Below are positions 132 through 53,619 of a stretch of 64,000 bases of DNA, in pieces. Origin of the DNA: Daphnia pulex (Eukaryota; Arthropoda; Branchiopoda; Diplostraca; Daphniidae). A program made the translations under genes and the position numbers. Below the pieces are notes generated by a model. The model was given only the letters and a program-made list of their open reading frames with translations. It had not been told where the DNA came from and did not search any database. Numbering within the stretch: the first letter of the stretch is position 1; the number at the start of each line of letters is the position of its first letter. The stretch spans positions 8,308,001-8,372,000 of the forward strand of contig NC_060024.1 in the NCBI RefSeq assembly GCF_021134715.1. Direction: 5' to 3'.

Positions 132-1183
132 TTATTCGATGCTATGACGAATTTTCTTGAATAATTGGGATGCAAACTCAAGGATAAATTAACCTTAACA
201 TTCGAATTATTACCTCAATTAAGACGACCACATCGAGACCGTCCTCCACCCTTTGAATGTGAATTGTGTAAGGTACACACGATTCAAGGATGATGAGACT
301 ATGGCGAGTTGAAGATCTAGAATGGTCAAAGGCATTGGCAACAATAATCAGAAACAGAATCTCGTCAATCTTTAATTCTGATGTTCCCTTCCTGTAAATA
401 ATCAAATAAAGTTCATTCATTTTGTGTAAGTAAATAATCTGAAGAATTGAATGTGTTGAGATTATACCCAGAGTAAATGGCAACAATACTGGTTTCTTTT
501 ATGATGAGGATGTGAGCCCTGCTCTCTGGAATTCCTCCACGCATATTCAAATCTGAAACTGCGACTTGGAGGACTCTTAGAATGGAAGAATTTACAGCCT
601 CACTGATGGGTTCATAATGCAGTGATTCTGTAACAATGGGCTGACTAGATTGTCTCAATCTTAAAAATGTTTCAATCAGAAGAGTGGCAAGCTCTGAGTG
701 AGTATTCGAGTGTTTCAACCTGCACAGAAAAAAGAAACATTATTATCAACCACTCTTTTTTGTTGAATTTAATTGCCTGGCATACACTGATAATGAAGGA
801 CCGCAAACATGTTGCATGAGACTGAAGCTAACCCTAGCCAGGTGAACAGCATTTACAGATGACCTGGCTACTGTGATGAGCAGGAATCCCATTTGCTCAT
901 AAAAGGCCACGGTGGAACCGTCTTCACAGGCGATACAATCGTAAGAATTTTGAAACTCTTGATTCATGATTCTATGTGAAGTCAAGAGCGGAGAAAAGAT
1001 TTGCATGAGGATCATTGATTCGGCATCTCTTCTCGATCGAATGTCATCGTCCATTACTTCCTCTCCTGGCACGGCACACATGTCCAAGGTATCCGATACG
1101 CAATGAATTCTGTTTTTGAACTCGCGGTCACTATAAACATAGAGCAAATCATCGTGATTGTCAAATAAAACGACACCAATCAT
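132..1183 (-). CDS. HPS1: HPS1-like protein (BLOC-3 subunit), short form
   Basis: In the known family HPS1 pairs with HPS4 to form BLOC-3, the exchange factor for Rab32/Rab38 in lysosome-related organelle formation. Four exons fit the splice signals: 786-1183, 468-719, 214-391 and 132-176, giving about 290 residues. The N-terminus (MIGVVLFDNHDDLLYVYSD) and the stretch LLTSHRIMNQEFQNSYDCIA resemble the first longin-like domain of HPS1. HILIIKETSIVAIYSG and SCVPYTIHIQRVEDGLDVVV match later segments. Vertebrate HPS1 is about 700 residues. Here the linker between these segments is missing and the frame stops at 132-134, so the C-terminal half is absent, or lies in exons beyond the left edge that need a different splice. 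The start is the first ATG of exon 1. The alternative is another longin-type protein of the MON1/FUZ/HPS1 group. Confidence 0.6.
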
Positions 1184-2617
1184 TTGATAAACAAGTCAAC
1201 GAGGAAAAAAACGTAAACAAAATTTCTTGACAGTTGAAAAAGGATCGTCTGCTTGATAATCGATATCTCATTTCACCATCGATTTATAAAAGTAACCGAG
1301 TTGATTTATTATTCATTCAAAAATGCCAAAGTAGTTCATTCTTAACGCGTTGACAAGCTCATTTGTTGTCAACATTTTGACGTTGTCTCAGCAGTTGCGA
1401 AACTTGATAGATTGCGCTCTTATATAGTGTGCTGTCACGTGTCAGAAATCTGCTATTATTCCGTCCCATTTTGGAATGGAGTTTTACCGGTTTCAAACAG
1501 AAATTTATTCGCTTTGACAAAAACGGTAATAATGCGCAGTGACGTGAATTCCTTTTTCACCAATTGCCCAAATCACCGTCTTCCTTGTTTGCGCACATTT
1601 GAAGGGAAAAGGGACGTGAGCGAGGATCGCCGCCGATGGAAGGCGACAGGAATCCGCCCAGAAACTCTTCCAAGGACGACACACTGTCTTGAAATGGGCG
1701 ACTCCCAGTTGGAAAAGGCCTTTTTTTTTCTTCCTTTCCAAATCGAGTGTCTGTGTGAAATTCCCCAATTTTTACGATAGATAGTTTCACCCTGCGGGCC
1801 ATTCATGGCGATCGCTCTCGAGTGTAATATCCTGTTTTACGTCCATCTGTTCTCGTTTGTGTTGTCAAACACGGGCCGTATCTATTTTCATAACAGCACA
1901 TATATACCATAAGCCATTTGAAAGCCCATCCGAGTATATATACATATAGTGGTGTGCTCTACGTGCATCTGTTTTTTGTTTTCAATAAAAATCCAAAAGT
2001 CTTATGGCGGGATCTATCGGACTGTTGCGTGATGGAGCGGCTAAATCCCATCAGCGCGTCCATAAATCACCGATTCAAATTGCTGCTGCTGCTGCGGTCA
2101 AGGCGCTATATATATTATATCTTTTATTTCAGGAATAAAAAAAGAGAGGTAGCCCTGCGAATCAATCAATCGTCATATCCGTCCGACACATTGTTGTATA
2201 CATTCAATAATGCGTATTATATTCAGCATTTCCCGCCGCCGGGCTCTTGATAGTAGACATGTGTCACACCTGCGATTCATCTTCCCTATGTATCTATTTC
2301 CCTCTGTATGGCCGCCGTTATTTTCTTTTCATGATGAAATCCACAAATGAATTCGACGCAGTCGTCCAGGAAAACTGTTGGAAACAAAAAATATAATTCG
2401 ACAAAAAAACAACTCGCCGCTGCTGTGTTGACGTCACGAACCAGGATGTATAAGTTGCCGCTGCGCTGCCACTGGATTGGTGATCCACGGCCAGAATGGG
2501 CGGTTCCATATATACCCTGGTCTCTTTTTTATTTTATTTTTTCCTCGGAGAAGAAAAAAAAAAAGTTCCGATATAGCTGCTATATGCGTGTATGTGTGTG
2601 TGCGTGCGTGCTGTGGG

Positions 2618-4341: not shown

Positions 4342-6985
4342 ATGTCCAACAAGTACTTCCCCAGTTCGTCACCCGACGAAATGAACGAGAAGCCGAAAAT
4401 GTCGGCCGACCAGGAATCCGCCCTGGATATGCACTTCAACCGGAACAAGACGATGCACGCATCCGACGTGGCCATTCTCTCAGCCGAAACCGGATTGTCG
4501 GAAGAACAAGTGCAGGTATTTTTTTCCCTCGTGTATACTATAACTACCCGGCCATCTCATCTGTTCGCTTTTCCCAAATGACTAAAAACTCCACAAAAAC
4601 GAGCGTGTAAACAAAACAACATTCCGTTTGCGGGGGAATTGGGCACATTCCTCCAGTCCACCAGCAGCAGCTACGACTCAATAAACAAGTTTGGAATTTG
4701 TGTGCGCTGTTTTCCAAGTACGGCGCCTTTTTCCTGGGAGTCTAAAAACAATTGACAAGATAATAATACAGTTAAAATAAAAACGGGTCACACAATTCGG
4801 GTACAAAAGGAATTAATGCAAAAAGTTTAATTTCAAACCGGGTGAACTCGAATCAAATGACCCGCATTATTTTTTTTTTAAGTCAAATTCATAAAATGTC
4901 CTTTTTAATTATATGCATAATTAAAGGTGTTTTTGTTTTAAAAAATCCGGTTTCTTCTGAGAAACGAAAAACTAATTGAGCACTGATGTTAACCAATACT
5001 ATTAAATTCTGGGAGGTTTTAACCTTGTGATTACACTTTTCAAGGTGACCCATGATCGTCTAAATGCGATAAGAAATTTCGGTTGGATTTCTTGGTGTGG
5101 TCGCCCCGATCACGCTCTCCCATCATGCCCATCATCCTAAAAATATAATTACAAGAAAAAAAAAGCAAAACAAATCATGTATCATTTCGTCACGCGGCTT
5201 CTGTTCTTTCTCCGTGTTACGCCAAAAAGAAATTTCCCTCGAGGCTTTGACAAGAAAAAAAACGCCATCGTGATTATTATATTATCACGTCGTAATGCAA
5301 TGCGCGCCCTCCCAACACGATTGAGCGGAGAGGCTCGTCTGAGAGCATCTAGAAGCCGCTGGAAATAATCCTGGCTTGTGGCGTGCTATGCGGTAATAAT
5401 AGAGGTGGTGTGGGCAATATAATATCGTCCGCTTTCATCCTCGCACGTTACGTAAAATGGTGTACACGAGAGTTGTGTGTAGTATCGGTAAACATGTAGC
5501 AAAAACGAGCGAGGAAAAAAGCTGTCGTCTTTTTTTATTTTCTGTTATTGTTGTCCTTGGCTGCGGCCAAGGTGCTGGCACACAGTCCGGATACTTTCCA
5601 ATGTTTCTTTGCTTTTTCCGTTTTTAACTTGGTGGGGGTTATACTGATTTTTCTTTTTGGGAAGGAAGATAGAGAAAAAAAAGGGGCTGTGAAGTTGTGT
5701 GTGACTGGGCATTGATGATGATCCGTGAGTCTGCAATCAAGCGTCGTTTAAAAAGCTCGTCAGCTGGGCCGTCTGTTGCCCCCTGCCTGCCAAAAGGCAT
5801 CAATGTCCAGCTGCATGGACGACTGTCTATACGACCCCGACGTCACGTATAATGCCAAGACATTGATGGTTGTGTTTCTCTCTTGTTAAAGGGTCATCAT
5901 CTCCAAGGAGAAAATTTAAGAAATACAAAACAAAAAAAGCAAAAAGAATTGAGAAAAGACACAAAAACGGTTCAGAATGTTAATTTTGGAATGAATCCCG
6001 TTGGCTGTATTAGATAGACCCCGCCCTTGACGATATAAAAACTTGAAATTTGGATCATTTGATTCACCGTTGCCAGGAGAAGAAGAAGAAGGGTAATTTC
6101 CTTTTCCTAATGGTAATTGCTCTAAACTGGAGCTGGAACAGAATTCCAGAGCTCGGGCTTTTGTTTCTCTTTTGTATAGAAAAATATAGTAGCCTAAATC
6201 TGGGTCCCCCCCTCCTTTAACAACAACCACATTTCCTGAACGCTAGCAGCTGTGTATAATATAAGTCTGGAATTGCGCACTTATATTCAGGACGGGGGCG
6301 ACTGACCGAACGACCGGCGACTTTACTGTAGTACCGAAAAAATAAATAAAAAGAAGAGAAAAGTTTCCTTCTCTTTCTTAATGTATAATGACGCAATAGC
6401 AGAGTTGAGTATAAATATCTTCCTTTTTTTATGTGTGCGGAATAGGAATGCCGAAAAATAATAAAAGTTGAGCAAAATGTTTTTTGGGTCCGCTCTTTAT
6501 GAATTGCTTGGAATGAGAAAGAAAGAAAGAAAGAAAAGAACATAATATCCATTCGAGATTGAACGACTCCCTCCAGCGAATTTTGTTAATAAGAGATGCT
6601 AGCTGCTTTCCTTTTTCTTTTCCTCACTAAAACCATCAACGACGATATGTGGCTTTTTTTTCTGTACACTAGTATATTATGTAGGTATATAAACGTAGTA
6701 TACTGTGTGTGCAACATCATCTATTCAAAGCCAAAAGGGGTGGGAAGAGGATACCCGAAAAACACTTGGCAAAGTGGTTGAAGAGCTATTTTCAATCTTT
6801 CAGACTTTTTCTTTTTCAGCTCTTTTGTGTGTTACTTATATACCGCATCTTTTTTAAGATTTTTTTTCTTTTTAAATTTGGTTTTGTTTGTTTTATTTTT
6901 TCGACAGCAATGGTTCCTGTTCAGATTGGCGTCGTGGCGCAAGGAGCAGGGACTGGGACCTTTGGTCGGACGTTTATACGAATAA
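4342..6985 (+). CDS. HOPX: HOPX-like homeodomain-only protein
   Basis: In vertebrates HOPX is a very small homeodomain protein that does not bind DNA and acts through partner factors such as SRF and histone deacetylase complexes. Two exons, 4342-4515 and 6908-6985, join in phase 0 across a 2,392-nt GT-AG intron. They encode 83 residues; human HOPX has 73. Helices 1-2 are read as DMHFNRNKTMHASDVAI and ETGLSEEQVQ. Exon 2 supplies the third helix, QWFLFRLASWRKEQGL, which aligns with the HOPX pattern WF-x-x-RL-x-x-WR. The homeodomain asparagine that contacts DNA (the N of WFxNRR) is replaced by F, so loss of sequence-specific DNA binding is expected. The start is the first ATG of the open frame. 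A short leader exon may end at 2820. The alternative is a divergent PRD-class homeodomain fragment, but the size and the shared WFxxRLxxWR ending favour HOPX. Confidence 0.75.
4516..6907 (+). other. Long intron of the HOPX-like gene
   Basis: This 2.4-kb stretch is spliced out between the two HOPX-like exons (donor GTATTT, acceptor TTTTTTCGACAG). It is AT-rich and has no exon I can support. Frames such as 5916-6230 and 6217-6552 on the minus strand lack family features. Other introns in the window are mostly under 200 nt, so an intron of this length may hold regulatory sequence. Confidence 0.6.
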
Positions 6986-12506: not shown

Positions 12507-13719
12507 ATGGCTTTTTCTTTAGCTAGAACACAGTGCAGGTTTTTGCTGTTGTCTATTATTTTTGCATTACTTGTGTTTCAAGTGTATGCAGATAAAGAAC
12601 CTCATGAAGACAGCAAAGAGGACAATTCAGTAAAAAACATAACATTTGTATAATGCTAAGCATATTATAATCCAAAATTTATGCATTTTCACTTTTCAGA
12701 TAGAAAATGGGAAAAATAGCAAGGAGATTAAAGGAACTGAAGCTCCTATGAATGATCTGGGATTTGCTCATGCTTTTTTAGCTTCTTTATCAGTTATTAT
12801 TGTATCTGAACTGGGTGACAAAACTTTTTTCATTGCTGCTATTATGGCAATGAGACACTCACGCTTGGTTGTGTTTAGTGGAGCAATTCTTGCTTTAGTA
12901 ATAATGACTTGTATTTCAGGTAAAAACATTTTTTTGTTGATTTGAAAATGAAAAAGACTAACCACAATTTATGATTTTGGTCAAAACCAGTTCTTTTTGG
13001 GTGGGTAACAGTAATTATTCCAAGAGTCTATACCTACTGGATATCAACTGCATTATTTGCTGTGTTTGGCCTCAAGATGTTAAAAGACGGATACTCTATG
13101 TCGCCAAATGAAGGGCAAGAGGAGTTTGAAGAAGTACAATCCGACCTGAAAAAACAAGAGGATGAGGTAATATCATTTGAATTGCTTGATGAAATCATCG
13201 CCTAAATTTTTACATCTTAGGAAAATGAGAAAGAATCAACGAAGCTTATAGACGAAGAATCGGGAGCTACATCAGTGCATCAACCTTTGAGTCTACGTCA
13301 GCGGATATCTGGATACATACCCAAAGTTTTTTTGCAAGCTTTGACACTCACATTTCTGGCTGAATGGGGTGATCGTTCCCAATTAGCAACTATTATTTTG
13401 GCTGCAAGAGAAGTATGTCGTCGAGGTGTTTTTTTTGCTAAGTTATGGATCGATTTAATTAAATTTATTTTCCTTCAGGATATTTTTGGTGTAATGCTGG
13501 GAGGCGTTTTAGGGCATAGCCTGTGCACCGGTTTAGCAGTTTTAGGCGGCAGAATGATTGCCCAGAAAATTTCTGTCAAGACAGGTAATTTAAACAACAA
13601 ATTTTTACGATCAATTAATTCAATTAAAAAACACTGTTAAAATTTTAGTGACGCTCGTTGGTGGAGTGGTGTTTCTCTTATTTGCTGTGTCGGCACTTTT
13701 TTTTGATCCCGAATCGTAA
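12507..13719 (+). CDS. TMEM165: TMEM165/GDT1 Golgi cation transporter
   Basis: This family (UPF0016) moves Mn2+ and Ca2+ into the Golgi in exchange for protons and supports glycosylation. Six exons, 12507-12629, 12700-12919, 12991-13166, 13221-13412, 13479-13584 and 13649-13719, give 295 residues; human TMEM165 has 324. A hydrophobic N-terminus resembling a signal peptide precedes two copies of the defining motif, SELGDKTFF near residue 74 and AEWGDRSQL near residue 210. An acidic and lysine-rich loop (residues about 150-190) separates the two three-helix halves. The protein ends FFDPES. The splice acceptor just before the ATG implies a leader exon. All borders are GT-AG and phase-consistent. 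Family is certain from the two E-x-G-D-(K/R)-(S/T) motifs; the ion handled is inferred from the family. Confidence 0.93.
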
Positions 13720-14400
13720 ATTGATGATCTGCCATCGCAAGTATACTTTTGGAGTTTCAAAATGTACAGGCCAATGTTTGTTAAAATTTTCTCCGATAAA
13801 CTCACTAATGAATTGATTAAAAGAGCCCGAAATACAAATTCTGTTGTTTTCAACAAACGATATTCTATTTTCATTTCAAGTTTTAAACAAACAATCCGAA
13901 TATGCTGACAAACAATCAGAAAGTTTTCAGAGCTGTTTAGATATAGGTAAATCGATCTCTATTGCACCCAATATTAGGAACCCGAAGTCGTTATTTTCTA
14001 ATTAGATCTATTGAAAATATCTACAACGTAAATGTTTAGTTTGCTTTTTAATTTATTATTAGTGACGAACTATTTTTAAGGAGTAGACTTAATTTTAAGG
14101 GGCTTCCAATTTTTCTCTGATTATTTAAGCATGGAAGTGGAATTAAACAAAAATTTCAAGTGAACGGCGGGAATTTCGTCATGTCATGTGTTGATAAAAA
14201 TTGTCCTCACAGATGGCACTCATGGCAATTATTTGATAGGTTTTCGTCTGCTCAAACAAGTCTCTTCATTCGCACGTGGTTTTTCCCGGTTTTCCGTACG
14301 GCTTCTACCTCCTTGCAGAATCTTGCAGATTTGAAACGGCTGATGGTGAAGAGACAAGTGTAAATTCGTTTTTGTATTTTTTTCTTGTCATCAACTTAAA
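13720..14400. other. Intergenic region, TMEM165 to RNA polymerase I subunit
   Basis: AT-rich sequence with no supported exon. It must hold the TMEM165 3' end and the promoter of the downstream gene, but I see no clear TATA box or polyadenylation signal to report. The open frame at 14160-14363 has no recognisable family features and probably lies in the leader of the downstream gene. Confidence 0.5.
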
Positions 14401-17400
14401 ATGGCGCAAGAGCGTAACATTCATTACTATCCGGAATCCGTGACTTTTGGGTTTCACACTGCCCATGATATAACTAAGATCAGTGTAGTGGAAGTTACCC
14501 AAACTGATACTTTCAATGCACTTGGTCACCCAATTACAAATGGCTTGTATGATATGAAGATGGGGCCCTTTAGTAATGATGCTGGGAAATGTCCTACATG
14601 TAGCTTGGGGATGTTGCACTGCCCAGGACACTTTGGTCACATCGCTCTCCCGCTACCTTGCTATCATCCTCTGTTCTTACGAAATGTGGTGGCAATCATG
14701 AAAATGACCTGCCCTGTCTGCAAGACATTTGCGATCCCTGGTAAGGTGCTTTCTGTTCCATAAATTACTATGCTAACCAAATACAATTTTGTGTTATCTT
14801 TTCATTACAGAGAAAGACAAACTGGTATTGGTGGGTCAGCTCCAACTTCTCAAGTATGGATTGATAATAGATGCACATAATTTGTGGCAAAAGGCGAAGC
14901 CCACTGTGGAAGATTATGATGAAGATGAGGGAAAGACAACACAGCTTAATGAAGAACAACTCGAAGAACTGCGATTGAATATTGAGGAGGAAATCAAAAG
15001 GGCAAAAGAGGATGCAGGGATTACCTGTGGTGATAATCCTCCACCAACAAGGCATGTGGAAAACATGAAAATGGAGTTTCTGAAACTCTTCATGCTCAAG
15101 TTTAAAACCGGGAAGAAAAAGTGTGCTCAAGGCTGCAAAGGTGGATTTGAAAGAATCCAACAATATAGATCTCGCATTGTTTACTCTCTAAGGCATGATA
15201 CACCCACAACTTCTTTGGGGTAAAATTTTTTTTATATGTTTAATTTTAACTTAATAACTCTTCGACTGAATAATTAGGGGGAACATGATGATCAATCCGG
15301 TTGAGTTCGAAGAAGATTTGGAAGACGAAGATGACGTAGAAGGTAAAACTCCATCAAAGCATAAAAGGAAGCCGAGGGCAACGATGTATGTTACCCCCAA
15401 AGATGCAAGGTACCTACGGTTGTTTTTTGTGATGAAAATAGTAACTCTAAGGCAATCCTGTACAGAGACCTGTTGCGACTATTATGGGAGAATGACAAGG
15501 AATTGTTCGGACAGATGTACCCCGTCTTATTCAAAACCAACATTGATTATCCAACTGATGTGTTTTTTCTTGAAGTAATATCGGTGATGCCTTCAAAATT
15601 TCGGCCCGTAAATATCGTCGGAGGTATAATGAGTGATAATAAGCAGACAGCCGTCTTGCGCAAAATAGTGCAGGACACTTACGTAGTCAAGACTGCGCTT
15701 TTTTGCCATGAGCAGAAAACCATGGACAATGTTCCCGAAGATTCAAAGCGCTTCCTCAAAAGTTTGCAGGGAGAAACTCTTTTGGAGAAACTGCAAACAG
15801 CTTGGCATGCACTCCAGGAAAATGTCAACATGATAGTGGACGCGTCTATGAATAAAGATGATAAAAACATGATTGGTTTTAAACAGGTACCATCAGTTAC
15901 GATCCCTCCAACCAGCTAGACTTTAAATACATTTTTACCACAATTTAGATTTTGGAGAAAAAGGAAGGGTTATTACGTATGAACATGATGGGGAAAAGAG
16001 TTAATTTTGCGGCTCGTTCCGTAATCACACCCGATCCCAATTTGGACGTTGAAGAAGTCGGCGTTCCTGATTGTTTTGCGAAAAGGTTAACGTTCCCCAC
16101 CCCAGTAACATCATTCAACGTTTGTGTAAGTTTCAGATGTAGATAGTTAACCAAATGAGACCCATCTAATTTCACAACTGGCCTATTTCAGGAAATGCGC
16201 GATGCCGTGCGTAATGGACCCAACGTTTGGCCTGGCGCAACACACATCGAAGAGAGCAATGGGAAAAAAATCAATCTGAACCCCAATGACGAAAAATCAC
16301 GCGCGGCCATTGCCAAAACCTTGCTAACCCCTTTCGAAGCTAGTTCTCAGGCGGCGGTTTATGAGAAAGGCGGCAAAATCCGTACTTTATTCAAACCTAA
16401 AATTGTGCATCGTCATTTGAAAACGGGCGATATAATGCTTCTGAATCGCCAGCCCACTCTGCACAAGCCCAGTATGATGGCTCATAAAGCCAGGGTAAGT
16501 TTTAATTTTTCTGGCATAACTATTATAGTATTACTATAATTAAAATTTAATTTTTGCTTTTAAGGTGCTGATGGGGGAGAAGACCTTGCGGCTGCACTAC
16601 GCAAATTGCAAAGCATACAACGCTGATTTTGATGGTGACGAAATGAATGCACATTTTCCTCAGGGCGAAGTAGCTCGTTCTGAGGGATACAACATCGGTA
16701 TAATTCATTTTATGTTTTTGTACAAATTATTTAATTGTGTCTAGCCTGTTATCCTTTTTAGCGGCTGTACCGCATCAGTACCTTGTGCCCAAAGATGGAA
16801 CTCCTCTAAGTGGGTTGATCCAGGATCACATGATCGCAGGAGTGAAACTCACGATGCGCGGGCAATTCTTTAACCGGTTAGTAACTACTTCCCAAATCCA
16901 AGTTCTATCTTGTAATTGTTAAGATAAATTGATTTTTACTTGTATTTCAGAACCGACTACCAGCAGCTAGTTTTTGCTGGCTTGGGCGGACGAGAATATG
17001 ATGGTAAAACTAAACTTTTGCCTCCCACGATACTGAAGCCGGTCGCCCTGTGGTCGGGCAAACAAATATTGTCCACCGTTATCATCAATCTGACCCCCAA
17101 AGGCAAAAAGTTGATCAACATGGATTCTACAGCCAAGATTAGCGTCAAGGACTGGCAAACGGTACCGGCAAGAAAATGGGAGGGAGGTGGTACTGAGCTA
17201 CAAGGGAATAGCATGACGGAAAATGAAGTTGTCATCCAACATGGAGAGCTGCTGGTTGGCGTACTGGACAAGATGCATTATGGAGCCACTTCATACAGTC
17301 TCGTCCATTTGTTTAATGAGCTTTATGGAGGTCAGTATTCGTGCCGACTTCTCTCGTGCTTCGCGCGCCTTTTCACGACATACCTTCAGCTGAAAGGATT

Positions 17401-20400
17401 CAGTTTGGGTGTCGAGGACATCTTAGTAACTCCGCGGGCTGATAAAAAGCGCAGAAAGATTCTTAAGCGACTTGAAACGGTAAGTTGTTTTGACCCGTTT
17501 TACATTTCATTGCCCTTATTAATTGTTCAAAATCGAATTAGGTTGGAGATGGTGTTGCTACCAAAGCTGTTGGTGTTACCCCTCAAGAGGTTGAGAAAAG
17601 TGGAATGGAGATTGTGAGGAAGAAAATGCAAGAGATACATTTCAGTCAAAATGCCCTTAAAAAAATGGCCATTGACAGAGAATACAAAGGTGTTACTGAT
17701 CAAATCAACAACGAAGTAAACAGGCAAGTTTTTATTTTATTTATTTTGTTTTATTTTAAAATTCACGTTTTAAATGATTTTATTGATGAAAACTAGGGCC
17801 TGCATTCCGGGAGGACTGCATAAACTGTTTCCGGATAACAACTTGGCGTTGATGATTCAGTCAGGTGCCAAAGGATCTAGCGTTAACGCTATGCAAATTT
17901 CTTGCCTCTTAGGCCAAATTGAATTGGAAGGAAAACGGCCCCCTCTGATGATATCAGGGCGTTCTCTGCCGTCTTTTGTCGCCTTCGACACATCGCCTCG
18001 AGCAGGAGGCTTTATCTCTGGTCGTTTTATGACTGGCATTCGTCCTCAAGAGTTTTTCTTCCATTGCATGGCCGGTCGTGAAGTATGTAGTACCTGTTTT
18101 TTCATTTTCATTTATTTGCAATCTTTCTTCATTGCTATTGTTTATTGTGTCCGTAGGGTCTTATCGATACAGCTGTAAAAACGTCTCGAAGTGGATACCT
18201 CCAGCGTTGTCTCGTAAAGCATTTAGAAGGAGTGAGTGTTGCTTACGATGGTACAGTGCGCGATTCCGACGGACTTGTTCTGCAGGTATATTTTATTAGT
18301 GCATGTGCTGTGCGTTAATCTAATCCATTTGGTCCTCTTTTCTATTAAACAGTTTCTTTACGGGGAAGATGGACTGGACATTTGCAAATCGCAATTTCTC
18401 AACGACAAAGGCATTCCGTTTCTGGTAGCCAACCGCGATTGTGTCCGTTTGATTGAACCAGTATCCGATGAGTCGGAGCAGAAAGAAGTGGATCACGCTA
18501 AAAAACTGGTAATATTTTAGGCTCTTAATTTTTTTGTCTTTTGTTTGCTTATATTTTCCGTTTTTTAACCTTTCAGGTGAGGCGTTGGCTTAATAAGCAT
18601 GGATCGCTAAGTAAAGAAAAGGTGCGAAAGTCTGGGTTTTTGAACTATTCCTCCCAATGTGGGATCAAGGACGATTTTGAAAAAGGGAAAAATGGTCGCA
18701 CTTTTACCGCCTTTGAAATTGAACAGGCTTGGATAGCGTTGTCTGCCGAAGAACGGGCGAAGTAAGTTACTATAGAATTTTATTTATTGTTATTTTTTAA
18801 CTCTATGAATGATTTTTTGCAGATACTCCAAAAAGACTGAAAGCCCACCTGATCCTGTAAACGCTAAATTTTCCTTTACACGAAATGTGGATGTGTTTGA
18901 CGAGCAGCTGAACACGATGATGTCGCGCTACCTTGATCGTCCAGGCGTGCCCATTGGAAAGAAAGAGCTGACGCGACTCGTTTACAATAAAGCAGTTGCG
19001 GCCTCGTGCGAACCAGGGGAGCCGGTGGGAATGTTGGCTGCCCAGTCGATCGGTGAACCCTCAACCCAAATGACCCTCAACACTTTCCACTTTGCCGGTC
19101 GTGGTGAGATGAACGTGACGTTGGGTATCCCTCGATTGCGTGAAATCCTTATGGTGGCTGCTGCAAATCTCCAAACTCCGTCGATGGACATTCCCATATT
19201 GGTAGAACTTTTTTTCTCTTTTACAATTTGTATTCCATTTAACGATTTTTGGACATGTTTATTCAGGGTAAGGGACCTAAAGCCCTACGCAAAGCTGAAA
19301 AACTTAAACTCAAGCTGACTAGGGTTACGCTTGCCGATGTCCTAGAGAACGTTTATGTAACCGAGGGATTGTCAATCAACGAAGGTGAAAGGGCCAGGAT
19401 TTACGGACTTAAATTTAATTTCCTCCCGCATGCCTCCTACAAGGATCGTTTCTGCGTTAAACCAAAACAGGTTTTGCATTACTTCGAAAAAACCTTTCTT
19501 CCGAGAATTCTCCTGCCTAATATCAAGAAGGAAGCTGAAGCACAGGGAAAGCAAAGGTAACTTTATAAAATATTCAACATAGTTTCTTAACTTTACCCCT
19601 TCTTCGTTTTTAGCCTTTTTGAGTGCAAATCAGCTGTCCAACCTCGTAAAGCCAATGTCAAAGAGGATGGGGCAGAGGGTGCTGGTGAAGAGGGTGAAGC
19701 CACAGCCAATGGTCGTGCAGAAAAAGATGATGAAGACGATTTCGATGAAGGTAGCAACGCAAATGATGATGATTTTGCGACACAACGCGCCAAGGACGCT
19801 GACGAGCATGAATATGAGGATGAAGATGAAGCAGATAAGGAACCTGTTAACGAAGACGGTTTTGAAGACGAGACTCCGAAACCTAAGGAGGATGCCGAAG
19901 GAGAGGAGACGGATGATGACCAACCCAATGAAAAAACTATGAATGAAGAGGATGCTGCGCTCGACGTAACACCTTCAAAAGAAGAAATGGATCAGGAAAT
20001 GGCCGAAGCGTATGAAACGCATAAACTCACTGTGATCCAGGAACATAGTTGGATCTGTGATTATGATTTCGATAGCACTGGATTCCTTAGTTGCACAGTC
20101 ACGCTATCGGTATAAATAATAAATTTTCGCGAGTAATTTCTTGCCCTGCAAGTAATATATTTTTTAATTTCCAGGTTCCGCTGTTTGTCGAAAAGGTGGA
20201 TCTATCAAGTTCTTTAAAAAAGTGGGCCGAGTCTTCTGTTGTGCACCACGTGATGAAAATCAAGCGTGCTTTTGTTGTTGCCCCGGAGTCTGATAATGGC
20301 GACATCATTATCAAAACAGACGGTGTTAACATTCAGGCTATGTTCGATTACGCCGGCATTCTGGATTTAAATCGGCTCTACACGAACGATATTCACGAGG

Positions 20401-20881
20401 TGGCCAAACACTACGGTGTCGAGGCTGCCTCCCGTGTAATCGTCAAGGTATATCTGTTATTTTACTCGTGATTTGGACTAATGCCTTAAAATTGTTCCTT
20501 TGAAACACTAGGAAGTGAACAACGTGTTCAAAGTGTACGGAATCACCGTAGATCATCGCCATTTGAGCTTGATTGCAAGTTTCATGACATCAGGCGGAAG
20601 TTACCGGCCGTTCAGCCGTCACGGAATGGCCGACTGCACTTCGCCGTTTCAACAGATGAGCTTCGAAACGGCTACGGAATTTTTGAAGAACGCCACGCTT
20701 CAAGGTAAAGTTTAAGGCTGCACCCCTGATTACTTGTCCGTAATTTGCCTCATTTTTATCATTTTTTTATATTTTGTTAGGCAAAACTGATTTTTTGAAG
20801 ACCCCATCTTCGCGTCTCATTATGGGACTTCCAGGTTGCGAAGGAACTGGATCTTTTAATTTAATGGCTAAGCTGTATTAA
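14401..20881 (+). CDS. POLR1A: RNA polymerase I largest subunit (RPA190/RPA1)
   Basis: This is the catalytic subunit that transcribes ribosomal RNA genes in the nucleolus. Twenty exons can be phased from 14401 to 20881 and sum to 1,750 residues; human POLR1A has 1,720. The start [18 protein letters not shown] is followed by the N-terminal zinc site [18 protein letters not shown]. The active-site aspartate loop [14 protein letters not shown] is in exon 7. The trigger loop region [19 protein letters not shown] is in exon 15. A long acidic insert (exon 17, about 19680-19990) separates the two parts of the jaw and is typical of Pol I, which rules out the Pol II and III paralogues. Exon 10 ends at a GC donor (AACAG followed by GCAAGT, 17724), so that intron is GC-AG. 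Exon 4 starts after ATAG at 15441 to keep frame. The end is [12 protein letters not shown]. Confidence 0.96.
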
Positions 20882-42001: not shown

Positions 42002-42248
42002 TTTGGTGCCGTAACCAGGATTGTTGCCCAAGCGTGGTCGGCAATCATTCTCTCTCTCTCTCTCTCTCCACGTGGAGTTGGTCTCGTGGTCTATCTGGTC
42101 TTCTCAAAACTCGTGTGGCCGAGAAAACCTGGGATTGACTTCGTGTATGTTCATTTATCATCGGATGGTTCTTATTTTTGAGGATTCACATCACTCAACT
42201 TTGAACCTCAACGTCCTTTTTTGATCATCGATCCTTGCTTTTATCTCT

Positions 42249-42707
42249 ATGCCAAGAAAGAGAAGCAGTAGGATCAGACGGGCAATACAGGCTGTTGAGT
42301 ACGAGCAAAATAAAAATCTTCTGCGAGAAGCCAACGCACAAGTTCGAGCAGCCATTGAACCTCAAGTTGCTGAACCTCAAGTTGCTGAATCTCAAGTTGC
42401 TGAACCTCAAGTTGCTGAACCGCAAGTTGCTGAACCTCAAGCTGCTGAACCTCAAGCTGCCGAACCTCAAGTCGCTGAACCTCAAGCTGTTCAATCTCAA
42501 GCGATTAAACAGAAATCACTGGAGGAACGCATACGGGAGACAGTGGGAATTTTCAACGTTATTCAAGATCTTCATCGCAGAATACCCCCTCAGCTACTGC
42601 CACCAGTGAGGATTTTGACTCAACAGGCAGCGGGAAATTTTCAATTTCAAAACGCTATTCAGCCTATCAACGAGAGAAGACGAAGACGTTCTTCAGTTGG
42701 CGCATGA
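42249..42707 (+). CDS. Retrotransposon leader ORF with PQVAE repeats
   Basis: An intact 152-residue frame between the 5' LTR and gag. Residues about 36-78 are a tandem repeat of roughly nine units of E-P-Q-(V/A)-A, encoded by a 15-base repeat at 42357-42490. The ends are basic (MPRKRSSRIRRAIQ and RRRRR). A direct duplication of about 36 bases (GACGAAGACGTTCTTCAGTT units) spans 42678-42745 across its stop. This is probably the decayed N-terminal part of the element's polyprotein, with no known function of its own. Confidence 0.4.
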   Translation: MPRKRSSRIRRAIQAVEYEQNKNLLREANAQVRAAIEPQVAEPQVAESQVAEPQVAEPQVAEPQAAEPQAAEPQVAEPQAVQSQAIKQKSLEERIRETVGIFNVIQDLHRRIPPQLLPPVRILTQQAAGNFQFQNAIQPINERRRRRSSVGA

Positions 42708-43147
42708 AGACGAAGACGTTCTTCAGTTGGCGTATGAAGACGAAGCTTAAATCTCATTCGTATTTCTTGAATTGCATAGTTGACAACTCGAAAGAGTCAT
42801 TCGGTCGGTAGTTCAGGAAGCTCTCTATGTATTAAGCCAATCGTCAATACAATCATGCTGCTATTCACTATTCAATCATCTCGATAGTTGTCTCTTCTCA
42901 TACATCATAATGAATCTCCAAAGCTCACAGTATCCTCGTTGCCAGACTTGGTCACTCTCTACTCTCCTTTCGCCTTTCAAGTGAATAGTCGACTGGCTTT
43001 TATCTCATCTTTCGCAGCTGAGAAATCATCAACCTCGTGGCCACGCTTGGCCCAACTCTTTCTCTGGTTACCAAGCTTGGTTTCCATCGCTAATAGCTGA
43101 CAAGCTAGCATCATGATCTCCGACGTTCATCATTTCATTCAAAAAAA

Positions 43148-44456
43148 ATGGCGAGGCTGGCTTCCCTAACGTCCAAACGTGGTGGCAATTGCGGTGCAGT
43201 TACTCGATTCATCGCCAAAATTTCCGACATAATCACCGATGCTGCCATGGATAGACACCGAAAAATTCACGAGCTGAACAAGAAGTTGGGAGATCTTTAC
43301 GACAAGATCAAGGTAGTTGAAGCGCTCGATAACGAAATCGTCGAACTGTTCGCCACGGCTGACGTAGAGGATGAAATGGACAGTGCTGGTGTGGTCAGTA
43401 CGGCAGAGTACGACGTTCGTGACGCAGCAAAATTTACTCTGAAGAAGCTTATGGATGAAAATACCGCAGAAGTAGCAGCAGCAGCTGCCAATCCAAATCT
43501 TCCAGCAGTTACAATCACTCCAATCATCAACATGACCGCTGCCACAGATTCAAGTCATCTCCCCAAATTCAACCTACCTGATTTCAACGGAAACATCCTC
43601 ATGTGGAACGCCTTTTGGGATGTTTTTGAAGTAGAGGTACACCAGAAAACCAAATACTCAAACGCTACCAAATTCATCTTTTTGAATTCTCGTCTCTCTG
43701 GCGAAGGTAAAGCTCTTCTACTCGGCCTGGTACCGAGTAATGACAACTACACAGTAGCAGTTGCTTTATTGAAGTAATGTTTTGGCCAACCAGCTGAAAT
43801 AATCATGGCTCACATGCGAGCTCTCGTCGCATTGCCAAAATCCCGGAACCGACCGGAACTCACTTCGCAAGTTCGTCGACGCTCTAGAATCGCACATCCG
43901 CGGTCTCGAAGCACTCAACAAAATGCCAGATTCTTATGGAGATCTACTGGTCTGTATCCTCTTTGACAAGCTCTCAGCTGAGCTACGTCGCAACCTGGCT
44001 CGACAGAATGCCGCTGCAGAATTGGACACTTTACGGAAGAGTCTATTAACCGAAATAGAAGTCCTTGAAGATAGTGAGAGCACACTCATTCATCCATCAT
44101 CGCTCAAGCCTCCCAAGAATTTGAATATTATGTTTACTGGAGCAACCTCATCAAATAAGGAGTCGAAGAAAAGAGAAACTCCTCCTGCCCGAAAACTTTA
44201 CTGTCCGTTTTGTGATGGCGAACACTGGCCTACTGATTGCACGACCGTCAAGACAGTTGAACAACGGTACGAAGTTGCAAAGACAAAAGACTTTGTTATA
44301 ACTGCCTCAGAAAATGTCATACAGCAGGAACGAAGTGCCCTTCTTCGTTTCGTTGCCGTGAATGTCACCGACCTCATCACACTAGCCTCCACAAGCCGGA
44401 TACACCTAGAATTATTGGTGCTAATATACACTCATGATGTCTTCCGACTTCAGTAG
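43148..44456 (+). pseudogene. BEL/Pao gag remnant (DUF1759, zinc knuckle)
   Basis: The first part (43148-43777, 209 codons) ends in the DUF1759-like stretch LPKFNLPDFNGNILMWNAFW. A frame disruption near 43780-43920 precedes the second part (43923-44456), which contains a zinc-knuckle-like site CPFCDGEHWPTDC. Gag packages the element's RNA in particles. The split frame shows it is non-functional. Confidence 0.75.
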
Positions 44457-46112
44457 CACTCACAACCGCCAACGCCAAAAAACACGAGCCCTTTGTGTTT
44501 TTGGACACTGCTATCGCTACTGCCCAATCTCAATTTTTCAAACGCTCCAGTAACCTTCTGATAGACAAGGGAGCACAGCAAACTTTCATCACTCTCGATC
44601 TCGTCAAGCAACTAAAACTTAAGCCAATACGGATAGAAAGTCTAGTTCTTATTGGTTTCACTTCTTGTCGTGGCGTGTCTGATTTTTATGATGTTGGACA
44701 ACTATCTCTGATCGATCGTCAAGGATAACCTATTCTCATTGAAGCAATCGCCATTCCACACATTGTGGACCCTCTCTCTGATCCGCGTATCGAACAGATT
44801 TACTGAAGTTGCCTCATCTCAAGAATCTACTACTGGCTCATCCGGTCTCAAAGAAATCTATCTTCAGCGTCGACATTCTAATCGGAGTTGATTTATACTG
44901 GGACATCGTCGGTGATCACGTTATTCGTGGACCAGGTCTAACAGCTGTTCAATCAAAGATTGGTTATCTTATCTCCGGGCGGCTGAATAATTTGAGTGAC
45001 ATCATCACGCAATCTGTCATAAATATGCACATCTCCGTTGAAGAAAAGTTCGACGTCGCCCGTTTCTGGCAAGTCGAAACCATTTGAATCCAGCCAGATC
45101 TGGAATCAACGCAAACTACTCAAAGCTATCAAGAGAAATCTGTGGAGTTTCGAGATGGAAAGTACATCTCGCGAGACTACCGTGGAGTGAGAGTCACCCT
45201 CACCTTTCGTCCAACTTTCAAATATACCAGAAAAGGACGTGAGGAACTATCAAGAGCCTAGCCTCAAAGGGATCAGATGGACTCAAACTCTATTCACGAA
45301 TCATTCAGGATCAGCTGGACAGAAAATTCATCGAGATGATTCCGTATGCTGAAATCAACAAACAGAGTCAATACATTCCACACTTCGGCGTTTTCAAAGA
45401 CTCTGCTACAACACCGCTAAGAATCGTTTATGACTGTTCATGCAAAACTCCAGCTGGAGTCAGGCTAAATGATTGTTTGGAAATTGGCCCTCCACTCCAG
45501 AACGATATGTTTGCCATTCTTCTTGGCTTTCGCGTACACACTATCGGTTTAACAGCCGACATCGAAAAAGCCATCCATTAGATCGGACTTCACGAGCAGG
45601 ATCGTGATTTCGTCCTTTTTCTATGGCTAAAGGACCCTCTGGACCCTAAATCTGATTTCTAGTCATTCCATTTCCGTGTTATTCCATTCGGCGCTAGCAG
45701 CTCTCCATTTATACTCCTTTCGATGATCAAGAAGCACCTACAAGCGAGTTCATCTCCGCTAGCGGCTGATATCAATCGAAACATTTATGTTGACAATCTT
45801 ATATCTGGTTGTAAAACAACGGAAGAAGCTATGGATTATTATTCGGAAACGAATAGTGTATTGAAGCAAGCTGGACTTAAACTGCAGTCATGGGGTTCCA
45901 ACGATAGCCATCTTACGGCGAGAGCAAACAGCGAAGGAGTCAGCCATGGATCTACATTCACTAAAGTCCTTGGACTCAATTGGGATCGGAACGAAGACAC
46001 TCTTCATCTCCCTAATGTCCAGCCCTCATACGTGTGCCATCCACAGTCAACGAAACGAGAGGTGTTACGTGGCATCTCGGCTGTGTATGATCCAATTGGA
46101 TTTATTTCTTCT
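44457..46112 (+). pseudogene. BEL/Pao protease and reverse transcriptase remnant
   Basis: A protease-like segment (44495-44728) has DKGAQ in place of the catalytic D-(S/T)-G. The reverse transcriptase follows in pieces at 45336-45581 and 45723-46112, with internal stops at about 45579 and 45660. The metal-binding motif reads YVDN rather than YVDD. The frame is cut at 46113 by a nested insertion. The element has lost enzyme function by several independent lesions. Confidence 0.75.
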
Positions 46113-48162
46113 CGACTTAGACTTGACTTGGACTTGACTTAGGCGTTTTTCCTGCTTGACTTGAAAATTTTTTCAGACTTTAACCGAAGTTGAATTCCGA
46201 ACCAAAAAATTTCAAGTCAAGCAAGAAACTTGAACTTGGAAAACTCCAAAGTCGAGCACTAAAACTAAGTTAAGTCTCTCAAATCTCAAGGTACCTTTTA
46301 GGTGCCTTGAAACTGACTTACGGGCTTAAGTTCACTAAGTTTGCGGTGAAAATTGGCAGTGGCGTTGTGTTTGTTTACACAATGACCGATTATTGTAATG
46401 ACGTCATTGATGAATTCTTATAATGTATGGATAATTTAACTAAGGATTTGGGATATTTAACTACGGGAAGTGATAATAATCAAATAGTTCCTAATTGTTT
46501 GTCTTATTCCATATTATGAAAAATGGAAATATTTTTATAAGTTGATTGACCTTCACTTGAATACATCATAGGGTTTAACTTTTACGAACTATTGTAAGAA
46601 ATGAACTCCCTATGATAAACTTTTGATTTTTCATGACTTTTTGTCCATCTTTTACATAACACAAAAGGCAAAAACAAGCCGGAATTCATTTTCTTTCCTA
46701 TCATAGGGGAGACCGGGGCTATGTGGGATATTTTTTTTCTTTTCGCTGCCATTTAAATTAAAACTAAGAATTATGAAAAAAAAAGTATAGGGGTGATTCC
46801 CTGGCATTTATTAACATTCGGTCATTTTTTTAATTTTTTTCGTTTGATCATTCAATAGCTATATGGTGAAATGCCAACATGAAAAAATGCCGAAAAACAA
46901 AAAAATTAGGGTTAAGCGGAACAGAGCCGGGGGAAAAATGGAACATCAGTTTTCTCTGCAACGGCTTAATTATATTTATTAAATAATGCACTGCTGAAAA
47001 GGAAATTCATTTCCCCTTCAGAAGTGCTGTCTTTTTATTTATTTTGTAAAGTAGAAGTGGAGATGCTATCAAAAAAGTCTTTTTGATAATTTTTCCTTTG
47101 TTGTTGTTACTAGGGGGCGTTTTCCTGGAAATAACGTTGATCTGGCAATACCTGTTTTACCCCGTTTTCCATGTCCCGTTTAACCCGAACCCAAACAACA
47201 TCAAATAAACTAAAATATATCAGGAACTCATTTTTTATAAAACATTAATATTATCTTAAACTAGGAAAAAACCCTATAAAACAGCTATCTGGGTTTTATA
47301 AAAATATAAAAAAAAAATATTACGAAAATGGAAAACAAAACGTCGGAAATTTTTTTCACGACTCCCATTTTTTTGTTTTTCCCATACAACTCGACAAAAA
47401 ATCAAGAGGAAAAAAACTTTATATTATAAATAAAACATAATTTAACATACGCTGTATGTATTTCGTAATTTTAAGACAAATTGTACATATAAAAATTTCC
47501 CTGTACATTTTAGCCCCGTGTCCCAAATAGCCCCGGCCTCCCCTACTGGTTTTATTTTGTAATTCTAAGAAACCAAAACTTTTAAAACTTTTATTTAGAA
47601 TATTCGTCGCAGTCCTCTGATACAGCCAAACAACTGTGTCGCGATTTTACAACTGCAGTTTCTCAACCCTTATCTTTTATATTTAAAAACCACTTTCATT
47701 TCCCAAAAACTAAAATAACTTGAAACACTAATACAAGGATATGTTCAAATTTCCATTTCATATTCCATTTAAAACATAGCCCAAACATTAATATGCTGAA
47801 AAGCATTTATCCCAAGCGCCATCGGTTCAATTGGTTGGCACGCTAATTTGAAATAAAAGTCTGTTTTTTTTAAAGTTCCAAGTCCTTTTTACCGGAACTT
47901 AAAAAGTTAAAATTCGTCTGCAAAGACGAAAAACATTATAAGTAAGACCTTCTGCCATTGGCTCAGTTGCCACTTTCAAGTTAAGTAGCGTTCCTAAGCC
48001 AAGTAAAAAATCTAAGTGAAGTCCAGTGAAAAAAGTGAGCTTTTTTGGTTCGGAATCATACTCGGACTTGAGATTGAAAGTTTCTAACTTTAGCTCAAAA
48101 CTCGACTTTACTCGGACTTAACTTAGATTGTTTCAAGTCAAGTTTTCGTTATGTTCAAGTCG
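46113..48162. mobile_element. Insertion with CGACTT-type inverted ends inside the retrotransposon
   Basis: The ends CGACTTAGACTTGACTTGG (46113) and, in reverse, CGACTTGAACATAACG (48162) are imperfectly inverted. They are followed by mirrored blocks such as TTCCGAACCAAAAAA near 46197 and TTTTTTGGTTCGGAA near 48043. The AAGTCAAGT motif recurs many times near both ends. The reverse transcriptase frame resumes after it. I could not define a target duplication. It contains the smaller TIR element at 46704-47545. Confidence 0.55.
46704..47545. mobile_element. TIR element nested in the 46113-48162 insertion
   Basis: The left end TAGGGGAGACCGGGGCTATG and the right end GCCCCGGCCTCCCCTA are inverted and flanked by TA. 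They resemble the GGGGAGA family seen at 29970, 34511 and 36121. The interior is AT-rich without a coding frame. Confidence 0.65.
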
Positions 48163-49640
48163 CCGTTCGGAATACGACCCCTGGAAGCTCAAACTGGACT
48201 GGGATGACGCCTTACCTCAAGATCTGATCGAAAAATGGACAGACATTTCGAAAACAATCGAAAATATCTACTACAATTTCCTTCCGTCGTCTTTATCTCG
48301 CAAAGGGAAAAACTTCTCCTGAGAATTGAGATACCTACGAGATCCAACCGGAAAACGTCCAGCTCTTGTCTCCCAACTGGATTTATTCATCGGTAGCGAC
48401 GGACTTATACGTTGCAACGGCCGTATGGTCAATGCTCAATTAAAGAGAGACACAATTCACCCCATTCTTCTTCCAAAGGAATCTGCCTTATCCACACTCA
48501 TCATTCTCTCTCATCACGCCCTGATGCTACATGGAGGAGTCAAGATGACCATCGCATCAATCCGTCAACGCTACTCGATTCCTCAAATTGGTAAGAGCGT
48601 CAAAAAATGCTTGAGAAACTGCGTCAAGTGCAATCGTGTGCGTGGAGCTCTGTACGTGGCCCCAAATCACGCTCCGTTGCCATTATCTCGCTCCTCTTTT
48701 TCAATTCCGTTCACAGTAACGGGCATCGACTTCACTGGGTCTTTCATCATTCGTTGGCCTAAAGAAGCACCTAAAACAGACCGTATCGTCTATATCCTCC
48801 TTTTTACCTGTGCGTCAACCCGCGCTATTCACTTGGAAGTAGTGGAAGATTAGACTACGCTCTCTTTCCTCGAGGCGTTCCCCTGCTTCATCGCACACCA
48901 TTCACGTCCCGCCATCATCATGTCCGACAATGCAAAGACATTCGAAAAGGGCGCAAAGGTCTTCCAAAAGATTTTTCGCGACCCTCTTACTACCATACCT
49001 AACAGCTGTCCGATTAAAAGGTGGAATGGCGATTCATCCTTAAACGAGCCCCATGGTACGGTGGTTTCTGGGAGAAACTAGTCGGAATGACCAAGGAAGC
49101 CCTTTCAGAAATTCTCGGTCGCACGAGACCCACCCTCAGTGCTTTTAGAGCCCTCGTCGCCGACGCTGAAACAGTATTGAACGATCGCCCTTTAGAGAGT
49201 CCATCTAGCGTCGTCAGCGATGGAGAGTCTCTCTCTCCGGCGCACCTCAGGTATGGCCGGCGTCTTAACACTCTACACTATAACGAAGAAATCGACGACG
49301 AGAAACTTGACTCAACCTATGGCGAGCGTCCCGACGAACTCAAGAAGGCCGTTATTCGCCACCAAACTCTCCTTGGACATCAAGAATCGTTTCCTCGCAT
49401 CCTATTTGTCTGCTCTTCGAGAATACCATCAGGCGACCAAGAAGAGTCAACCAACAGTCGTCAAAGAGAAGGACGTGGTCCTCATCCATGACGAGAGACT
49501 ACGCAGAGAATGGAAGTTGGCTGTCATCGAAAATCTCATCCGCAGCACTGATGGCGAAATCCGAGCTGCTGACATCCGCACGGCGAATGGAAAAACGAAT
49601 CGCCCATTTCTAAACTCTATCCACTCCAGGTGACTGAGCC
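48163..49640 (+). pseudogene. BEL/Pao integrase remnant (zinc-binding, core, DUF5641)
   Basis: After the insertion a short post-RT segment (WKLKLDWDDALPQDLIEKW) runs directly into the integrase N-terminus. A His-Cys zinc site follows (HHALMLHGGVKMT...CVKCNR) at 48326-48853, and then core-like residues (GIDFTGSF, IMSDNAKTF). A stop at 48851 and a frame change near 49020 break the core domain. A DUF5641-like C-terminal part follows (WYGGFWEKLVGMTKEAL, 49021-49491). The RNase H region expected between RT and integrase is absent. Confidence 0.75.
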
Positions 49641-52050: not shown

Positions 52051-53619
52051 ATGCAGAATGAAATTACAGAAATGACTAACAACAGTGAAGAACAACAGAC
52101 CTCATCTTCCTCCGAGGGGACCATCATATAGAGGTGGTAATTCAGCCACCAACAACAGAGGCCAAGGTTGAATGTGATGCTCCCCCCGCTGTGATCACCA
52201 CTCAGCCAGCACAGCCAATGCTTGAATACGATGACAGCATTGCTGTGGTCATGTGGGAAGCCACCGTTACTGGTCGACGCCTCATCGACGAGATGGTCAA
52301 CCTGGGATCAGTCTACGTGGCACAGGAAGAGAAAGCAGAAGGGCACGATTTCAACGAGTACGTCATGGATCATTTTACGTGGCACAGGAAGAGAAAAGCA
52401 GAAGGGCACGATTTCAATGAGTACGTCATGCCGTATGGCAAGCTACCGCTGAATGTAATTCGCAACTACAATCTTCGCATCGTTGACACGGGTCGTTACC
52501 GCATGCTCAAGGAGATCCGCAACAACAGAATGCTCAAGTCCAAGAGCAAGGTGGCCGCCTGCAACGATTTCGCCTCGTGGTTCATCAAGCTCCGAAAAGA
52601 TAATTTCACCGACAAGAAAATTGTCTTAGTCTTCTTTTAACCACGCCACTCCCAAGATCCTTCAGCTCTTCCAGGTATATCGCCATTAAGTTTCTATTTT
52701 TAGACTCGTTTCTAACTTTCAGTTTGTTTTAGGCTTTGGAACGTTACCGTCTTCTTGATGATGTCAACAAGATTTTGCTTGGATGTGTTAATGGCTGGGA
52801 TCTGCTCCGTCAACAGGTAACAACTGAAATAGTAACAAGTGAATTGGTTAGATTTTCTAACGTTTCAATCGAAAACAGGTGCATGATTTGAAGGATGAAC
52901 ATCGCATGGTCCTTAAAGCTTTGGCTGATCATCACCTTGGAGTCGACACACCTTTGGAGAGCGCTGTTCAACGTGCTCAATCTAGCACTTCACAAGATCC
53001 TTCGCAAGGTGCATGGCGGCCGCATCAACACTGGGGTACATAAGGAGAACCTTATCAGTTGCGATCATTTGCTCGAACAAGTCAAGAAGATCAAAGAAGA
53101 ATTGACTAAGGAGGCTCAATGGAGACCTGTATTCGCTGACATGTTTCGTCAAGATATTAAGCCTCGCCGGCGAGCTGGATTCCTCCGCCATATGCTCGTC
53201 GAGTCGGGCATCACCTATGCAGGCCTTACGGAAACATTCAAGGTGAGTTTGTTTTCTTATTTTCAATTCTTAACCGGATAATTGAAATTTCTTTTGCAGG
53301 ACAAAAAGATGACGGTGTGGTCGAGGTCATCAAAGAGAACATCAAAGGCAAGAATGAAGCCGACGTGGAGGAAGTCAGCAAGCTGCTGAATCAACACCTT
53401 GCGCAGCCAGACAAGCCCGTCCGACGCGGTAGCGGCCGTCGAACACCCCGCACTCGTTCCCTTTGCACCGCCACGGACTTGGAGAAGCAGCAGCCTGCGT
53501 CCAAGATCGAGCCCGAGGAAAACAACAACGACCCTGTCAAGATTATGGATTATGGATGTTATTCCCAGCACTCCTGCGGTCCGAAGTTTAAAAAGTCCCT
53601 CTCTCCTCGACCCGCCTGA
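52051..53619 (+). pseudogene. exu: Exuperantia-like gene, frameshifted copy
   Basis: In Drosophila Exuperantia binds and localises bicoid mRNA in the oocyte. Four exon blocks with intact splice sites, 52051-52674, 52733-52816, 52879-53242 and 53300-53619, match it in order. They are TGRRLIDEMVNL, the tract YGKLPLNVIRNYNLRIVDTG with YRMLKEIRNNRMLKSKSK, then ALERYRLLDDVNK, then QWRPVFADMFRQDIKPRRRA, and a basic proline-rich tail. The frame must change at about 52115 (GGGG), 52636 (TTTT), 52980 and 53305 (AAAAA). A 54-base segment encoding the first conserved block is tandemly duplicated (52314-52367 and 52376-52430). Retained introns show it is not a processed copy. Either it is a decayed duplicate, or the assembly has indel errors, since three of the four shifts lie in homopolymers. 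Confidence 0.75.

Follow-up and report, generated by a model that had tools for sequence, protein, structure and literature searches.

The window analysed here is a stretch of 64,000 nucleotides of the Daphnia pulex genome (contig NC_060024.1, positions 8,308,001 to 8,372,000), and it carries a small HOPX-like homeobox gene on its forward strand. Coding exon 1 (4342..4515, +) has 174 nt, or 58 codons, starts with ATG and encodes a 12-residue N-terminal tail and homeodomain residues 1-46, ending at the donor GTG CAG/gtattt. The predicted intron (4516..6907, +) is a GT-AG intron of 2392 bp in phase 0, and its acceptor reads ...ttttttcgacag/CAA TGG TTC. Coding exon 2 (6908..6985, +), which has 78 nt including the stop TAA at last base 6985, encodes homeodomain residues 47-60 (QWFLFRLASWRKEQ) and an 11-residue C-terminal tail. 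Joined in frame, the exons give a protein of 83 residues, MSNKYFPSSSPDEMNEKPKMSADQESALDMHFNRNKTMHASDVAILSAETGLSEEQVQQWFLFRLASWRKEQGLGPLVGRLYE. A two-exon, 83-residue homeodomain-only protein with an intron of about 2.4 kb had been proposed in the initial annotation, and this structure holds, with canonical splice sites and the frame kept. The annotation had also set the intron exactly between helix 2 and the WF motif of helix 3; it does fall between the two pieces of the homeodomain, but its precise position is between residues 46 and 47, one residue ahead of W48.

The splice from 4515 to 6908 is predicted from the sequence. An in-frame TGA, read in the window at 4216, lies upstream of the ATG at 4342, and the 83 residues would be the full protein unless another 5' coding exon exists. 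The protein has little beyond the homeodomain (83 residues, compared with 73 in mouse HOPX), and its N-terminal tail is presumably about 10 residues longer than that of mouse HOPX.

Several other genes are found in the window. Upstream of the HOPX-like gene, positions 746-1195 (-) encode a longin domain of the HPS1/FUZ/MON1 type (PF19036). Downstream, an alpha-L-fucosidase frame (PF01120) starts from 9054 and lies between the HOPX-like gene and a TMEM165/GDT1 gene, of which two exons were found (12781..13583, +; PF01169). The latter is the sole GDT1-family locus found in the genome. A large RNA polymerase subunit, probably RPA1, occupies many exons at 14350-20471 (+), with PF04997 matched on the first frame and the rest recognized by eye. 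The frames at 42205-49633 (+), which include gag-like, reverse transcriptase and integrase-like ones identified by eye, are taken to be a retroelement similar to the BEL/Pao-type LTR elements; the reverse transcriptase frame scores 24.4 bits with the Pfam model RVT_1, below its cut-off of 29.6. A frame at 52089-52640 (+) has an Exuperantia RNase H-like domain (PF22123, 83.3 bits).

Coding signal of the two exons

The joined protein matches the Pfam Homeodomain model PF00046 with 36.5 bits (E=4.2e-9), and exon 1 alone reaches 25.0 bits, above the cut-off of 22.9 bits; exon 2 alone is without any Pfam match. When the window is scanned in six frames without gaps, the 16-residue exon-2 segment of HOPX scores 56 at 6908, and the runner-up among the 57,923 stop-free positions of the window scores 24. 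This score by itself is not overwhelming, because the best segment from the 12 simulated 64-kb windows, found in one of them, reached 45; the combined evidence, as read from these scores, is. The joined protein aligns to mouse HOPX with a score of 128, and the top of 2000 shuffles is 39. In codon usage, exon 1 reaches 0.371 bits/codon and is above all 739 intron windows of equal length, by a narrow margin (maximum 0.359); exon 2 reaches 0.135 bits/codon and is too short for a strong test.

The low codon score, the shortness and the missing Pfam match of exon 2, together with the simulated segment scoring 45, would fit a gene that does not work, which could be a decayed relic or a homeobox-like exon paired by chance with an unrelated frame. 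This reading is extremely unlikely, as both exons are open and in phase, their canonical splice sites fall exactly at homeodomain position 46/47, exon 2 far exceeds its runner-up in the window, and exon 1 surpasses every intron window in codon usage. Chance pairing of the exons in particular was rejected on the segment scan, the exon-wise matches to HOPX described below and the codon usage of exon 1.

Comparison with HOPX and with other homeodomains

In a sequence search of the PDB, judged on the best 60 of 95 rows, the two mouse HOPX entries 1uhs and 2hi3 score 43.8 and 42.0 bits. They are the best single-domain match, with a lead of about 18 bits, and the remaining 57 of these 60 rows score 23.8 bits or less. 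The top row is engrailed (6m3d, 45.9 bits), which was rejected as the nearest relative because its score adds up two domains in the same chain, with 25.3 and 20.5 bits each.

The genome searched comprises 133.19 Mb in 13 contigs and gave 123 homeodomain matches including the window gene. Besides the window gene, 98 matches were taken as rows, one of which (L109) was dropped for a frame misfit, leaving 97 for comparison. The other 24 matches, each spanning 16-46 of the 57 positions, did not become rows; at least three (L079, L099, L100) do enter joined rows, as second exons. Among the compared pieces, 39 are split, 20 with the second exon and 19 as first exon only, and the exons of rows L099, L100 and L075 were joined by hand. 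Among these homeodomains there are presumably Hox types that carry Ubx/abd-A tails, two engrailed-type genes close together in opposite orientation, and POU-type homeodomains in two local groups (L051, L053, L057 and L063 on contig C7; L054, L056, L058 and L061 on contig C12, both in genome G000), which look like tandem expansions. Four near-identical homeodomain-like exons with SGSGRQRHFYDEVQLELLEAEF or a close variant (L102, L103, L107 and L108, on contigs C4 and C12 of G000) are possibly a dispersed recent family, perhaps borne by mobile elements.

Against these 97 pieces, and with mouse HOPX as the one HOPX sequence compared, the window gene and HOPX are reciprocal best matches. Mouse HOPX finds the window gene at 53.9 bits with a runner-up at 43.1, and the window gene finds mouse HOPX at 53.9 bits with a runner-up at 39.3 (L011); L070 scores 38.1 and ZHX3 35.8. 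In matching the window gene, every other homeodomain piece compared trails HOPX by more than 14 bits. When each exon is taken separately, the window gene and HOPX win in both directions, exon 1 included, and HOPX prefers window exon 2 by a slim margin (56 against 52). In an unjoined, exon-by-exon search of the genome, window exon 1 ranks only fifth of 10 for mouse HOPX (20.8 bits, best 22.7), because the intron cuts the HOPX match. No second copy was found in the genome, where the best match outside both window exons has 29.9 bits. Identity between the window protein and mouse HOPX is modest, at 25 of 56 residues.

DNA-binding homeodomains have x-N-R-R at residues 50-53. In the window protein the codons for these residues (6917..6928, +), placed by the sequence and its alignment to mouse HOPX, encode L-F-R-L, and mouse HOPX has K-Q-R-L, so that neither protein retains N51 or R53. 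The replacement of the DNA-contact Asn by Phe, as first noticed, is thus correct for residue 51. By a simple motif count, 74 of the 77 other homeodomains of the genome retain N51, and in the remaining three the motif was matched at the wrong place. The accompanying idea that the non-DNA-binding state is old finds support in the joint loss of N51 and R53, but residue 51 is F in the window protein and Q in mouse HOPX; residue 53 is L in both.

L53 and N21 (each in 1 of 77), D11 (2 of 77) and E43 (6 of 77) are common to the window protein and mouse HOPX and rare among the other homeodomains of the genome. M8 (1 of 77) was set aside, as it may come from the 1uhs construct, the match to 2hi3 stops short of it, and it is worth 5 of the 128 score units. 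The core positions L16, F20, L40, W48 and F49 are retained in the window protein. Both proteins also have R52-L53-A54-x-W56-R57 and a GL beyond the homeodomain. The C-terminus had been described as ending like that of vertebrate HOPX, and this is right for the shared GL, but nine more residues follow ...EQGL in the window protein. Apart from residue 51 and the modest identity, the window protein differs from mouse and human HOPX in the absence of the one-residue loop insertion that human HOPX has between helices I and II, where the alignment gaps the window protein. This insertion is possibly a vertebrate trait and not one that defines the family.

The homeobox of human HOPX is described as having an intron at 46/47 (PMC2211742), which is the position found in the window gene and which adds to the likeness of two tiny homeodomain-only proteins without N51 and R53. 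Position 46/47 in phase 0 is also that of the intron in the 12 split PRD-type genes with a located second exon (L069-L078, L080, L081; introns of 67-3318 bp), and the LIM-type L087 has it too, while four PRD-type domains are unsplit (L001, L012, L015, L016); PRD-type and LIM-type are here classes assigned by eye, from recall of the sequences, and a 46/47 label on L099 is an artefact. An intron common to PRD-type genes and one LIM-type gene is therefore not specific to HOPX. The split PRD-type genes resemble the window gene in the position and phase of the intron and in the homeodomain core, but they keep N51 and R53 and match it at least 14 bits below HOPX.

In a maximum-likelihood tree of 75 rows, from which L065, L066, L067, L101, repeats and rows of fewer than 52 residues were removed, mouse HOPX is the sister of the window gene at 98% bootstrap (98/84). 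The pair is kept in two trees of 71 rows, which additionally lack ZHX3, L043, L049 and L059 (L060 and L064 are absent from all three trees): at 98/98.6 with all residues, and at 98/92 once residues 50-53 are masked so that convergence through the loss of DNA contacts does not count, where the bootstrap is not fully settled. The trees have 55-59 columns and one HOPX row, and the branch of the window gene is long (0.99, 0.99 and 0.86). HOPX is assigned to the PRD class in one homeobox survey (PMC2211742). Here the place of the pair is not stable and shifts between trees: beside ZHX3 in the 75-row tree, within an unresolved set of PRD rows in one 71-row tree, and outside the PRD plus ANTP rows in the other, so that a single tree of the three puts it with PRD rows.

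Another crustacean gene of the PRD class could have lost its DNA-contact residues independently and come to resemble HOPX by convergence. The shared 46/47 intron of PRD-type and LIM-type genes, the scores that ordinary homeodomains such as L011 and L070 also reach, and the tendency of long branches to attract would all be expected of such a gene. It remains unlikely given that the HOPX pairing persists with residues 50-53 masked and the longest rows removed, that exon 1 alone picks HOPX as best in both directions, and that no compared piece approaches the HOPX score. A tree placement with another PRD-class gene, named in the initial annotation as the outcome that would speak against HOPX, was not obtained; mouse HOPX is the sister in all three trees.

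A second alternative is some other divergent group near HOPX, such as a Lopx-like or a ZHX/Homez-like orphan. Lophotrochozoan Lopx is described as distinct from every PRD family other than the divergent Hopx (PMC6118893), and human HOPX is near Zhx/Homez in one published tree (PMC2211742). The window protein matches the Homez model PF11569 weakly (17.6 bits, below the cut-off of 21), and ZHX3 stands beside the HOPX pair in the 75-row tree with a support of 83/0, flagged as a long-branch join. ZHX/Homez identity was nevertheless rejected, since the Homez profile is below its cut-off, ZHX3 scores well below HOPX and the HOPX pair is not broken in the tree. Lopx, compared by its description only, carries a conserved motif in its C-terminal part, separate from the homeodomain (PMC6118893), whereas the window protein has only 11 residues past its homeodomain. 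Membership of the window gene in such a group is very unlikely.

The window gene is thus read as a two-exon arthropod orthologue of HOPX, with a homeodomain that lacks the DNA-reading residues, at a probability of about 0.84. The modest identity, the few tree columns, the long branch of the window gene and the lone HOPX sequence count against it, as do the missing loop insertion, the F at residue 51, the fifth rank of exon 1 in the unjoined search and the shifting place of the HOPX pair in the trees. The proposal of a HOPX-like homeodomain-only gene in an arthropod is supported by the reciprocal best match and by the sister pairing with mouse HOPX.

Proposed action and history of the family

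The HOPX gene of Daphnia would be transcribed and spliced, and its 83-residue product would fold as a homeodomain that does not bind DNA. The protein may act through protein contacts as a co-regulator, in the way vertebrate HOPX acts on SRF and with histone deacetylases. Mammalian HOPX is described as lacking DNA binding, inhibiting SRF and recruiting HDAC (PMC9179269, PMC3876040). Since the core positions are kept and the DNA-reading residues are lost, HOPX-style action by protein contact would be the likeliest in Daphnia. An exon on contig C5, GRVKIKMEFIDNKLRRYTTFSKRKTGIMKK, is taken to be of the SRF-type MADS family, and with such a gene in the same genome a partner of the vertebrate type would therefore exist. 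Two further MADS exons on contig C1 are presumably of the MEF2 type (L112 and L113, G000:C1:4830143-4830936); about 550 bases separate the two, which may be alternatives that exclude each other.

TMEM165 is about six kb from the HOPX gene on the same strand. In humans, TMEM165 is tabulated at 4q12 in a study in which HOPX is among the genes of the amplified region of one tumour (PMC3460955), and HOPX is also placed at 4q12 (PMC2211742). This linkage, which was spotted after the fact, is suggestive only. A conserved 4q12 block was rejected as proof of orthology, because only TMEM165 is nearby and other 4q12 families are unlinked in Daphnia: SRP72 is on contig C9, FIP1L1 on C4, and matches to EXOC1 are on C3 and C11. 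SAICAR synthetase had no match in the genome search.

HOPX had been presented in the initial annotation as mostly known from vertebrates, which calls for some qualification. Holland et al. 2007 list it as an orphan without invertebrate orthologues (PMC2211742), but Paps et al. 2015 report Hopx in two oysters and one snail and put its origin at the base of Bilateria, followed by multiple losses; their ecdysozoan reference is Tribolium (PMC5322547). The mollusc genes, which are known here by description only, are like the Daphnia gene invertebrate members, assigned by tree, but they are spiralian and not ecdysozoan (PMC5322547). No arthropod HOPX was found in the open-licence literature, judged mostly from titles, and the gene may already carry a name from automatic annotation in public databases. 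Because the mollusc genes already give HOPX an origin at the base of Bilateria, the Daphnia gene fills an expected gap, and it is very probably a new member that adds arthropods to the family. It is somewhat favoured that HOPX survives in this crustacean as one gene, which lies near TMEM165 and retains the ancestral intron, and that the loop insertion and Q51 arose in vertebrates or in deuterostomes.

In mammals, HOPX controls states of heart, lung and stem cells without binding DNA. If the reading is true, an ecdysozoan HOPX would mean that the loss of the gene in arthropods is incomplete, and the traits of the ancestral gene would be narrowed to the loss of N51 and R53 and the 46/47 intron, as opposed to the loop insertion, which is possibly of vertebrate origin. 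Daphnia would then offer a genetically tractable invertebrate for the role that HOPX had before vertebrate hearts.
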